From positions 1 to 22,961 of the IMG/VR virus record IMGVR_UViG_3300044695_001537: DNA of 22,961 bases; one strand, written 5' to 3'. A program made the position numbers and the translations under genes. Below are positions 2,809 through 12,021 of this stretch, piece after piece. Source of the DNA: a virus. Each line of letters opens with the position of its first letter. The first letter of the stretch is position 1. Under the pieces are notes generated by a model. It was not told the DNA's origin and did not search any database. It was given only the letters and a program-made list of their open reading frames with translations.

Positions 2809-3023
2809 TAAAGTTCTTGACCTTGCGACATAGCAACCTGAACACGCTCGATCATCGAGCGCAACTGCTTGATTTCGCTTTCTTGTTTATTCAACAAAAT
2901 CGTTTGTGTTTCGCAAGTTGTTTTCCAAATGTCACGCTCATCACGCACACGATCTAACGCAACCTGCATTTCGTCTGTTCGACCCTGCCAATGTTGTAGT
3001 TCGGCTTTCATGTCCTCGCTCAT
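2808..3023 (-). CDS. Small coiled-coil protein (71 aa), hypothetical
   Basis: A 71-aa, highly charged protein that is almost entirely predicted helix, with heptad-like spacing of hydrophobic residues (ELQHWQGRTDEM, then IKQLRSMIERVQ). A strong AAGGAGA ribosome site lies nine bases before the ATG. That ATG overlaps the TGA of the preceding 44-aa gene as ATGA. Its stop overlaps the next gene as TAGTG. No catalytic motif is visible. Its role is unknown; small coiled coils of this kind in phages may be oligomeric adaptors or scaffold-like factors. Confidence 0.7.
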   Translation of the reverse strand: MSEDMKAELQHWQGRTDEMQVALDRVRDERDIWKTTCETQTILLNKQESEIKQLRSMIERVQVAMSQGQEL

Positions 3024-3154
3024 TTTTTCTTTCTCCTTCGTTCCAACTCTGCTTCTAATGCTTCCACAGTGGAAACAAGTCTGTCCACTTCCATCTGCCC
3101 CACGCTGATCTTTCGCAAGAAGTAGATGGCGCTTTCAATATCTTTGATTGTCAT
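3020..3154 (-). CDS. Small helical protein (44 aa), hypothetical
   Basis: A 44-codon frame starting MTIKDIESAIYFLRK and ending in a basic RRRKKK tail. It has heptad-like hydrophobics (LRKISVGQMEVDRLVSTVEAL), so it is probably a short coiled coil. A near-perfect GAGGAG ribosome site sits four bases before the ATG, and the TGA overlaps the next gene's ATG as ATGA. It is the first gene after the structured RNA element at 3177..3252, whose T-run ends 17 bases upstream of the start. Function is unknown; similarity in character to the next gene suggests the two could interact, which is inference. Confidence 0.72.
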   Translation of the reverse strand: MTIKDIESAIYFLRKISVGQMEVDRLVSTVEALEAELERRRKKK

Positions 3155-3176
3155 AGTCTCCTCATATCACAAAAAA

Positions 3177-3252
3177 TCCCCTGCGCTACTTTCGAAGTAG
3201 TTGCCTGCTCAAGGGAGTGAGAATATAGGCAAGTGGCGAGCCACCGCAGGGA
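3177..3252 (-). ncRNA. Four-way-junction RNA element followed by a U-run (terminator-like or leader)
   Basis: Read on the minus strand, the 73 bases 3251..3179 fold into a closed cloverleaf with no unpaired junction bases. P1 is CCCTGCG/CGCAGGG (3245-3251 with 3179-3185). P2 is GTGG-CTCG-CCAC (3233-3244). P3 is TTGCC/GGCAA (3228-3232 with 3201-3205) with an inner CTCA/TGAG stem. P4 is CTACTT-CGA-AAGTAG (3186-3200), whose loop region contains TTCGAAA, like a tRNA T-loop. Six Ts follow (3176-3171). It is tRNA-sized but lacks a D-loop GG and a seven-base anticodon loop, so I do not call it a tRNA. It could end the upstream operon or act as a leader for 3020..3154. A 25-codon frame also runs through it. 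Confidence 0.6.
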
Positions 3253-4768: not shown

Positions 4769-5089
4769 CTAGAATGACCAAAACTCTGGTCTGTAACCGT
4801 GCTTTGCCTCGAAGGCATCTAGTAATGCGTTCTCCATCGCTTGTGCTTCTGCTAGTTCCTCGTCAGTTGTGGTAATCGTTCCACGAAGAATCAGATCAGC
4901 ACGCTTTTCGGTTAGTTCACCATCTCGGACTAGGCACTGGTGCGCTGGATGAATGGTCTTGATATGCCGACCAGATTCACCATAGATTGCTGCACCCTCG
5001 TCATAGGTGAGGTACCACTTGCCTGACTTTGATTCCCGCCAAACCAAATCGTTTCTGCCGCACCTCTTACAAGTAACCCTCTTTGACAT
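4769..5089 (-). CDS. Zinc-ribbon-like hypothetical protein (106 aa)
   Basis: A 106-aa protein with an N-terminal CKRCG knuckle (C7xxC10), a beta segment with VWRESKSGKWYL, and HPAHQC near residue 48 that could complete a zinc site. The C-terminal half is an acidic helix rich in Glu and Ala, ending HGYRPEFWSF. It is the first gene after the promoter/leader cassette at 5090..5196. Its ATG lies three bases after a hairpin that holds the GGGAGG ribosome site, so its translation is likely structure-controlled. It may bind nucleic acid or a protein partner, but no specific function can be assigned. Confidence 0.78.
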   Translation of the reverse strand: MSKRVTCKRCGRNDLVWRESKSGKWYLTYDEGAAIYGESGRHIKTIHPAHQCLVRDGELTEKRADLILRGTITTTDEELAEAQAMENALLDAFEAKHGYRPEFWSF

Positions 5090-5196
5090 TTAGACCCTCC
5101 CTTGAGTCGTTCCTTCTCGGAGTATCTCCCCGATGCGTCAAATCTAGGATGCCGAAAGGCGGATTGCCACAACCTTTTTTAAGCCTTTATAGGCAG
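5090..5196 (-). promoter_or_regulatory. Promoter/leader cassette, copy A
   Basis: Read on the minus strand it contains, in order: ACCTGC, an A-tract, TTGTGGCAATC (5173-5163), GCATCCTAGATTTG with a TAnnnT-type -10 at 5146-5141, a stem-loop TCGGGG/CTCCGA (5133-5117) with one G-U pair, and a second hairpin GACTCAAGGGAGGGTC (5108-5093) that encloses the Shine-Dalgarno, then TAA and the ATG at 5089. The TTGTGG to -10 distance is 20 bases, long for a housekeeping promoter. The same elements occur at 11916..12021 before another operon, and that conservation in non-coding DNA is the main evidence. Confidence 0.65.
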
Positions 5197-5221: not shown

Positions 5222-5749
5222 CTAGCAACCCCGCCAAGCAGTCCAGCCGCACCCGCCGAGGCTCTGGTTGTAATCGAAAATTGCTTTGGCGGCAACGATG
5301 TTTAACTCAGGATTGAATAAGTGTTTTGGTTTGATGTTCCTATTCAAAACTGTTTGTAAAAAGCCCTCAGGATATGCGGTTGTTTCCGAGATCCAAAACA
5401 AGTTGATCTGGAACAAACCCAAAGAACCTTTCACCCCGTTAATCGTTGTTGGGTCATCAGGATTATGGGCCTGAGCCAAACAGCGTGACTCACGAAACAT
5501 TATTGAATCCGCTTTTTTCAAATCAGCGCCTTCGAAACCAACAGCGTTTAACTCTGCGAAATACTCTTTGCATTTCACCCATTCCGGAATTGGAAGCGCC
5601 GCATCACGAACAAGCCGATCAGCGACATAGGCAACCTTCCTTTGCGAAACCTCTTGATCTGAACCAGACTTCGCATAAGCGACACCTCCAAGAAAAGCAG
5701 ATATTGCAAACACTGACGCTAAAACTTTTTTCATAAACCTTCGAATCAC
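5222..5749 (-). CDS. Exported lytic transglycosylase (SLT/lysozyme fold)
   Basis: A 175-aa protein with a signal peptide: basic MIRRFMKK, hydrophobic VLASVFAISAFLGGV, and an AYA site for cleavage after Ala26. The mature part has the lytic transglycosylase pattern. The catalytic Glu87 is in FRESRC, followed by GSLGLFQIN (about 108-116), a FNPELNIVAAKAIFDYN helix and a final GWTAWRGC. Cysteines at 60, 90 and the C terminus could form disulfides outside the cell. I chose the GTG at 5749, because GAGGAGG lies five bases upstream; the ATG at 5734 is too far from it. It would cut peptidoglycan glycan strands. It lies in the early region between two leader regions, not with the endolysin, so a role other than final lysis is possible. 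Confidence 0.9.
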   Translation of the reverse strand: MIRRFMKKVLASVFAISAFLGGVAYAKSGSDQEVSQRKVAYVADRLVRDAALPIPEWVKCKEYFAELNAVGFEGADLKKADSIMFRESRCLAQAHNPDDPTTINGVKGSLGLFQINLFWISETTAYPEGFLQTVLNRNIKPKHLFNPELNIVAAKAIFDYNQSLGGCGWTAWRGC

Positions 5750-6094
5750 TTTCGCCTCCTCTAACTTTGGGTATGGATATAGAACTAAAGTTTGTTTTTG
5801 TTTAATGCTTTGCTCTCCTTTGAGAGTCTCGGCGCAACATCTGCGCTGGTAGTTCGCCTTGATGCGGCGTGTGTCTTAAGGATACCACTGTTCAAGTTGA
5901 TATATATATTTGTTTGTTACCCGTACAGAGACAGAGATTTAATTGCCCCCGTTGGTTTGCCTCACACCAACTCCCTATTTCTTTTTATTACGCAGCGCCT
6001 CATCTAATACATAGATGATCTACCCACGCTTTCCGTGTGTTACCAGACACCGTGCGAAGGGTGCAGGTCGTGGAACTAGCCGATTGTCTTTTGC
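5750..6094 (-). promoter_or_regulatory. Long structured non-coding leader upstream of the transglycosylase
   Basis: I find no convincing gene in these 345 bases. On the minus strand there are several short hairpins: GTTGGT/ACCAAC (5966-5971 with 5951-5956), CGCC/GGCG (5855-5858 with 5866-5869), GCGCA/TGCGC (5842-5846 with 5832-5836), CTCTC/GAGAG (5822-5826 with 5813-5817) and AACTTT/AAAGTT near 5764-5795. A wider CCACG/CGTGG pairing (6069-6073 with 6024-6028) encloses about 40 bases. An AT-rich TATATATA stretch (5900-5909) could be part of a promoter. A 28-codon frame (5802..5888) lacks a ribosome site. The last two hairpins in tandem resemble the two-hairpin plan of the leader cassettes without clear sequence identity. 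Confidence 0.45.
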
Positions 6095-11407: not shown

Positions 11408-11592
11408 TACTTCACCTCCAGTGTGACAACTTCGAAGCGGAACGCTGGATTTGTTTCTGCGGCTCTTGCGTTCAACTCATCGCACATTATTTTTGCGGCA
11501 ACGAAGTCGCTGAACTTGAACACCTTGACTGTTTTCGAACCAGTCTGATTGTGCTTCCTAATCAGGTGATGCTTGAACTTTGCTTCACTCAT
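11407..11592 (-). CDS. Small alpha/beta hypothetical protein (61 aa)
   Basis: A 61-aa protein starting MSEAKFKHHLIRKHNQTGSK, with a strand (TVKVFKF), a helix (DFVAAKIMCDELNARAA) and a C-terminal strand (FRFEVVTLEV). The true start is the ATG at 11592, in a TAATG overlap with the upstream stop and with GGAAGG nine bases before it; the extension to 11739 lies inside the upstream gene. It resembles 11138..11407 in its second half. Role unknown; the ferredoxin-like order of elements is only a guess. Confidence 0.7.
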   Translation of the reverse strand: MSEAKFKHHLIRKHNQTGSKTVKVFKFSDFVAAKIMCDELNARAAETNPAFRFEVVTLEVK

Positions 11593-11915
11593 TAGTTCAT
11601 TCCTTCCAATTTTGTTTTGTATGCGCTTGGGATTCGCTTTGCGCATGAAGCGCCAATCGGGAAGTAGCCCTGTGAGCCTTCGATAATTTTGATAGCAACT
11701 GGTAGCAATTCGCAACTCGTGGACATATGGACATACCATGCGGTTGGAAGTGACTTGTCACTAATTGTTTGCCCGCAAAGGTGGCAAGGCTCAATACCGT
11801 GTGTTGCACGATTGTGCTTCCTTGCATTCTTTTCTTTTTGCTCTAATGAAACTATGTCCCATTCAGAAATCGTGATCACTTCGATCTCGATTCCTCCTAC
11901 AACTCTTGCTTCCAT
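11592..11915 (-). CDS. Zinc-binding hypothetical protein, first gene of early operon (107 aa)
   Basis: A 107-aa protein with CHLCG (C44, C47) and a second part WYVHMSTSCELLPV, then SQGYFPIGASCAKRIP. The order CxxCG, W-V-H, a Cys, and sQGxFPIGxxCAK is a recurrent zinc-binding pattern in small phage proteins. It starts at an ATG three bases after the hairpin that contains its ribosome site (see 11916..12021), exactly as the gene at 4769..5089 does. It should be among the first proteins made from this promoter. Function is unknown; the zinc site suggests nucleic-acid or protein binding. Confidence 0.78.
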   Translation of the reverse strand: MEARVVGGIEIEVITISEWDIVSLEQKEKNARKHNRATHGIEPCHLCGQTISDKSLPTAWYVHMSTSCELLPVAIKIIEGSQGYFPIGASCAKRIPSAYKTKLEGMN

Positions 11916-12021
11916 CTTGACCCTCCCTTGAGTCTTTCGGGGTACTTCCCCGATAGAGCAAGTCTAAGATGCGGCGCTGCCCGATTGCCACAATCTTTTT
12001 TAGGCGTGAATAGCAGGTTTC
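11916..12021 (-). promoter_or_regulatory. Promoter/leader cassette, copy B
   Basis: On the minus strand: ACCTGC, CCTAAAAAAGATTGTGGCAATC-type block (TTGTGG at 11993-11988), GCATCTTAGACTTG with a TAnnnT -10 candidate at 11966-11961, the stem-loop TCGGGG-AAGTA-CCCCGA (11953-11937), and GACTCAAGGGAGGGTC (11934-11919) holding the Shine-Dalgarno, then AAG and the ATG at 11915. Compared with copy A at 5090..5196, the GC pair in the first hairpin replaces a G-U pair, which supports the stem as RNA. The TTGTGG/-10 spacing is 21 bases here against 20 in copy A, so the exact promoter hexamers are uncertain. Confidence 0.65.

Follow-up and report, generated by a model that had tools for sequence, protein, structure and literature searches.

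What is the tRNA-sized four-way junction that lies between a 69-aa ORF and a 44-aa ORF of this virus, and what might it do? The window (the whole stretch of DNA analysed, a viral record of 22,961 bases) carries a WhiB-like gene and a ParB-like gene akin to actinophage ones, and the phage host is for that reason probably an actinobacterium. A previous sequence-only reading of the locus had left the strand of the RNA unstated. The junction is formed by minus strand 3251-3179, the strand that codes all neighbouring genes and, further downstream, the genes for the ParB-like protein and for a C5 DNA methyltransferase (Table 1). Folding of this strand confirmed that the junction has zero unpaired bases and that six U residues follow it. 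The helix lengths given earlier held for P1 (7 bp), P2 (4 bp) and P4 (6 bp), but the arm described as 5+4 bp, P3, folded as 6+4 bp.

Table 1. Positions of the junction RNA, its parts, its surroundings and its predicted targets in the window.
Feature	Positions	Strand	Basis
-10-like promoter box TATGCT, 7 nt before P1	3259..3264	-	
Conserved four-way-junction RNA (P1, P2, P3, P4)	3179..3251	-	Fold, covariation in relatives, covariance-model match
P1 5' strand, acceptor-stem-like; CCCUGCG/CGCAGGG, 7 bp, partner 3179-3185	3245..3251	-	
P2 hairpin GUGG-CUCG-CCAC, D-arm position	3233..3244	-	
P3 arm, anticodon-arm position; two stacked helices UUGCCU/AGGCAA + CUCA/UGAG, 6+4 bp	3201..3232	-	Covariation in relatives
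Pairing segment CUCCCUUGAG, P3 apical hairpin, loop CUCCCU	3208..3217	-	Perfect complement of CUCAAGGGAG at two window RBSs
P4 hairpin CUACUU-CGA-AAGUAG, 6 bp, T-loop-like UUCGAAA	3186..3200	-	Covarying P4 with UGNAA loop in relatives
P1 3' strand	3179..3185	-	Pairs with 3251-3245
U6 run 3' of P1; possible terminator, window group only	3171..3176	-	Not conserved in most relatives
44-aa gene directly downstream; predicted helical hairpin (helices 3-15, 20-43), basic C-terminus	3020..3154	-	AlphaFold2 mean pLDDT 95.7
Target site 1: RBS hairpin GACUC-AAGGGA-GGGUC before 106-aa gene	5093..5108	-	Predicted fold
Predicted target: 106-aa protein with CxxC pairs	4769..5089	-	Orthologues bear phage-specific RBS motif
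Target site 2: RBS hairpin GACUC-AAGGGA-GGGUC before 107-aa gene	11919..11934	-	Reads same as site 1
Predicted target: 107-aa protein	11592..11915	-	Orthologues bear phage-specific RBS motif

Fold energy alone was moderately unusual (z -2.7 to -3.1; 1/200 shuffles equally good), and the junction RNA was accepted as real because homology, not fold energy, decides. Relatives were collected from IMG/VR by neighbouring-gene searches and then by DNA patterns, and were divided into groups W (the window, L002 and L003), A, B, C, D, E and F, with L064 and L072 as singles. An alignment of 13 relatives from groups A, C and D, which held no window-group sequences, supported 22 base pairs, with 90.8% of cells paired and a covariation of 0.451 compared with 0.160 after shuffling (0/500) and with a maximum of 0.142 when the register was slid. 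A covariance model trained on these 13 relatives, to which groups W, B, E and F did not contribute, matched the syntenic place in group B (E 1e-10 to 1e-12) and in group E (E 0.009 to 0.06), and matched the window with 16.9 bits (E 9e-5 in a 501-base search). Each source gave one match, all matches were syntenic, and none lay elsewhere in the list. Across 57 covariance matches, 93.5% of cells were paired and 19 of the 22 pairs had changed on both sides, so that the compensatory changes proposed earlier as a check are present; in P1, both sides had changed in 6 of 7 pairs among the relatives. By this comparative evidence the structure is a genuine conserved minus-strand RNA, and the earlier claim of an unclassified RNA of tRNA size stands.

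A coding origin of this conservation was rejected. The 25-codon frame that runs through the RNA in the window (PCGGSPLAYILTPLSRQLLRK, then a stop) is not conserved in relatives, so that the refuting condition named in the sequence-only reading, conservation due to this frame, did not occur. Because each reading frame has stops or shifts in some relatives and the length varies from 72 to 86 nt, the RNA is not a coding feature.

In about 60 IMG/VR contigs, a related RNA lies immediately 5' of the same 44-aa gene. The leaders all have in common a C-rich loop in P3 and, ahead of P1, a TANNNT box. The 34 pattern matches in viral contigs all had the same setting where downstream sequence was present. 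Five pattern matches in bacterial genomes were chance-like, with no other gene context found; a DNA search of 50,697 cultured phage records gave no match, and in cultured phages the 44-aa protein gave only weak matches. Six distant leaders (L055, L056, L059, L063, L066 and L089) have the same junction, a UUCCUUCCC loop and a 7-nt T-like P4 loop (UGCAAUU, UGAAAGU); an RBS set matching the UUCCUUCCC loop was not found for them.

The TANNNT box ended 6-10 nt before P1 in 25/25 leaders examined, drawn from diverged groups, and this fixed spacing suggests that transcription probably starts at the P1 edge. The 44-aa gene lies downstream of the RNA in every relative whose contig extends far enough. 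A PDB fold search with the model of its product gave unspecific helical matches only. The gene occurs also without the RNA: in L017, L028, L046, L057, L060, L062 and L068, relatives of it have a TANNNT box (TATGCT or TAGGCT) shortly upstream, and the four-way RNA and the RBS hairpins are both missing. Since the box is kept in such loci, the promoter seems to be older than the RNA.

The clue to a possible function, missed in the sequence-only reading, is that the P3 loop is complementary to RBSs of other genes that the phage itself carries. The segment CUCCCUUGAG (3217-3208) is the perfect 10-nt complement of CUCAAGGGAG at minus 5106-5097 and 11932-11923, two sites that the start codons of the 106-aa and 107-aa genes, respectively, closely follow. 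The coding strand of the window has no other exact match of CUCAAGGGAG. Among 46 window RBSs, these two gave runs of 10 nt and the next best a run of 7 nt; with shuffled loops the second-best run was at least 10 in 24/20,000. Because each target site sits in a hairpin, a loop-loop contact between CUCCCUU and AAGGGAG followed by extension would be geometrically natural.

The 106-aa and 107-aa genes also have a second repeat in common, approximately 70 nt further upstream (window 5162-5192 and 11983-12013; minus strand CTAT..A.GC.TAAAAAAG.TTGTGGCAATC), and in both a hairpin like GGGGAAGUACCCC lies between this repeat and the RBS hairpin. The repeat and the hairpin are probably a common promoter and 5' UTR. 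At window 5800-5830, a one-mismatch copy, CTCAAAGGAG (minus 5824-5815), was present within a hairpin, CUCUC-AAAG-GAGAG; it lies some 65 nt upstream of the gene at 5222-5749 and not at the SD of that gene.

Between phages, the loop and the RBS motif were found to differ together. In the loci of the window group, 6/6 sense matches of CUCAAGGGAG lay at an RBS; its three antisense matches are as many as the leader loops, to which CUCAAGGGAG is complementary. The loop of groups A, B and E, CCUCUUGAG, matches UCAAGAGGAG, which had 77/77 sense matches at an RBS and no antisense match; this complement is imperfect, with 8-9 bp and then a bulged A. The group C loop CCCUCCUCGG matches CCCUGAGGAGGG, and 20/20 sense matches of the group C motif CCCUGAGGAGG lay at an RBS. 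For L045/L037, the loop CCUCCUCUUGGUA matches UACCAAGAGGAGG over 13 nt, and there were two antisense motif matches, the leader loop itself being a perfect complement; among the loci, antisense matches were confined to W and L045/L037. The loops of L064 (CCUCCUCAGA) and L072 (CCUCCUCAGG) match UCUGAGGAGG and CCUGAGGAGG, respectively. In the remaining three motif classes, the sense matches at an RBS were 2/2, 1/1 and 2/2. When whole records were searched with exact 11-mers, the A/B/E motif gave 23 matches in 8/8 A/B/E records; there were 7 matches in one C and one D33 record, and 7 in three window-group records. Each 11-mer was absent from the other records and from the non-coding strand, an almost clean separation by group.

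The same divergence was seen between orthologous genes. The RBS motif of the 106-aa gene is CUCAAGGGAGG in W, CUCAAGAGGAGG in A and CUCUGAGGAGGG in L064, the last in an orthologue with 84% protein identity to that of the window and yet a different motif. The motifs of the 107-aa gene differ between the window, A and C, and those of the METLK gene between B, C and A. Pairing of each loop with its own RBSs was better than that of swapped loops (P=0.00025, 14 classes; 2 of 5040 loop permutations, 7 classes), P-values that ignore kinship within groups and are therefore optimistic, and that depend on loop and motif definitions set after inspection of the data. RNA-negative phages had one motif match in 155 kb. 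RBS hairpins exceeded flank-shuffled controls in W, A, B, C, E and L072, and no such excess was found in phages without the RNA; in A, B and E, the hairpin stem around AAGAGGA covaries (0.325 vs 0.179, 0/500).

In four small subgroups the loop/RBS match was poor or the site was not found. Subgroup D33 (L033/L036) has only 8 nt of pairing with its CCCUGAGGAGGG sites, and the L052 loop has an A-C mismatch to its sites. The contig sequence searched for L043, L041 and L171 had none of the listed RBS motifs, and the loops of group F (L055-type) had no matching RBS set. Overall, the predicted complementarity is to separately located mRNAs and is concentrated at the RBS, as in trans-acting base-pairing small RNAs, and loop-RBS pairing is, as a prediction, well supported.

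The most probable reading, to which we give a probability of roughly 0.7, is that a trans-acting, tRNA-shaped phage RNA pairs through its loop with RBS hairpins and in this way represses a group of phage genes. The RNA would be transcribed from a promoter of its own, at the start of an operon that runs from the 44-aa gene to the ParB-like and DNA methyltransferase genes. Its tRNA-shaped core, in which P1 and P4 adjoin and the small P2 possibly touches the P4 loop, would present P3 with the C-rich loop. That loop would pair in trans, loop to loop, with the SD-bearing hairpins of several further genes in the phage's own genome; an initial contact of 6-7 bp would grow to about 8-13 bp. The RBS would thereby be hidden from the ribosome, and translation of the target genes would fall once the operon is on. 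Expression, release as a separate RNA and timing are parts of the model that we infer, as is repression rather than activation, for which the position of the pairing and the precedents of RNAIII (PMC2837412) and B11 (PMC10470900) are the grounds. Two points count against trans action: any SD pairs to some degree with C-rich loops, and a purely trans-acting RNA would have no need to lie beside the 44-aa gene in every case. The Rop protein helps RNA I/II of ColE1. A more elaborate version can be put forward only tentatively, in which the RNA would kiss the RBS hairpins of a whole gene set and shut it off with help from the 44-aa protein, as from Rop, and in which divergence of this loop/RBS address code would insulate the circuits of co-infecting phages; the Rop-like helper role is speculation.

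The linkage to the 44-aa gene raises the alternative of a cis leader, a riboswitch or 44-aa autoregulation, in which the C-rich loop would fold onto the SD of the 44-aa gene and control that gene only. In addition to the constant position of the RNA just upstream of this gene, the loops show slightly stronger pairing with their own SD region than with SD regions taken from other groups (P=0.018), and in L064, L041 and L059 the loop is a good match to its own SD. However, the 44-aa SD is not preferred among the RBSs of the same phage (mean rank fraction 0.60), the strong sites belong to other genes, and the 44-aa gene exists also where the RNA does not. It was because own-SD pairing was not preferred that whole loci were scanned, which led to the trans targets. 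Control of its own gene is not favoured as the sole role of the RNA and as such appears unlikely; an additional cis role is possible.

The shape of the RNA suggests another alternative. Adjoining acceptor and T stems and a T-like loop are features of tRNAs and of the tRNA-like modules of bacterial Y RNAs (YrlA). In most relatives the 7-bp P1 adjoins a 5-bp P4 with a UGNAA loop in this manner, so that the T-arm impression recorded earlier was well founded, and a candidate contact between the P2 and P4 loops was paired in 96% of tested cells in a combined test, with one clear double change (group B vs the rest). A tRNA mimic would be recognised by RNase P, by RNase Z or by some other protein that binds tRNA, and the leader would be cut or the protein titrated. 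In contrast to tRNA and YrlA, the phage RNA has a tiny P2, a 2-bp hairpin G[CU]AA..[AG]C in most relatives, and no CCA, and nothing in it matched a tRNA or YrlA model in Rfam. Some tRNA-like motifs are lost in groups W and E; group E is missing the P2 and T-loop motifs and has nevertheless kept the C-rich loop and the promoter box. As mimicry would also leave the RBS complementarity unexplained, it is improbable as the whole account, and it may exist in addition to trans pairing. The decoy, processing-site and sensor ideas raised previously gained no specific support.

That the RNA is not itself a tRNA, as had been judged from the sequence, was borne out. ARAGORN found 0 tRNAs in the window and 10 relatives. 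The Rfam tRNA model (RF00005) did not match, and the 4-bp D stem, the 7-nt anticodon loop and the CCA end are lacking, the C-rich P3 loop being of other length. The Rfam scan that had been proposed as a check matched the RNA to no family, even at E<=5-10 for short stretches. C4 antisense RNA was rejected, its Rfam model being unmatched, and so was 6C/B11 RNA, whose 6C model was unmatched in the window and which has two hairpins rather than one C-rich loop. The only Rfam match was a type II hammerhead ribozyme (RF02276, 48.7 bits; gathering score 37) at L025:3098-3162. It ends immediately 5' of an RBS hairpin, GAUUC-AAGAGGA-GGAUC, that belongs to the gene starting at 3180, an orthologue of the 181-aa gene of the window.

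A promoter-proximal RNA could instead act on RNA polymerase, by antitermination like the put RNA of HK022, or as an attenuator of the operon. The predicted transcription start at P1 of the operon and the U-run of a minority of members are consistent with this. Only the window group and, less strictly, L052, L019-L021/L053/L071 and L041 retain the U-run, which is missing from most of groups A-D; an intrinsic terminator, suggested earlier, was accordingly rejected as a common role. Without a conserved terminator, and with the C-rich loop and the matching RBS sites unexplained, this alternative is highly improbable. A DNA-level element with no RNA role, either protein-binding inverted repeats or the cruciform once considered, is scarcely credible, as the stems are inverted repeats in DNA but always face the same way with respect to the gene and the promoter box, use G-U pairs, and have a loop that differs together with distant RBSs.

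The preferred reading, trans pairing at RBS hairpins, resembles several known systems. In Staphylococcus aureus, C-rich loops of RNAIII pair with the SD/RBS of several mRNAs (PMC2837412). The likeness extends to C-rich hairpin loops, several targets, RBS pairing and loop-loop contacts, with repression by the phage RNA as a prediction. RNAIII is a 514-nt host RNA that regulates virulence genes, whereas the phage RNA is approximately 73 nt, is tRNA-shaped, has predicted targets among phage genes, and has a loop that differs between phages together with the RBS motif. In the C4 antirepressor RNA of phages P1 and P7, complementary segments, likely in loops, block translation around the RBS (PMC12197685). 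C4, like the RNA described here, is a phage RNA with complementary segments around an RBS, but it was described for ant mRNA, whereas several separate genes with a common RBS hairpin are involved here. The mycobacterial 6C/B11 small RNA acts through C-rich loops on G-rich 5' UTRs (PMC10470900), and is similar in this and in its occurrence in actinobacteria; B11 was described with two C-rich loops and host targets, and the junction and tRNA-like core differ.

The mechanism, a C-rich-loop antisense RNA, is thus already known in kind. A search of the open-licence literature found no described phage RNA of such kind, and the RNA family and the multi-target phage circuit with its diverging loop/RBS code appear to be new. 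Known phage small RNAs have mostly single targets or host genes; the genomes compared here suggest a phage RNA with its own target set, marked by an RBS hairpin that varies in step with the loop. If this is true, a new RNA family exists in abundant uncultured phages, and the natural compensatory changes in RNA and target predict which swaps would restore regulation. The early mRNAs of T4 are controlled by the proteins RegA and RegB. There, as proposed here, an early phage gene set is shut off at the RBS, but the agents are proteins, whereas the proposed agent here is an RNA, which would make it the RNA equivalent of those protein switches.
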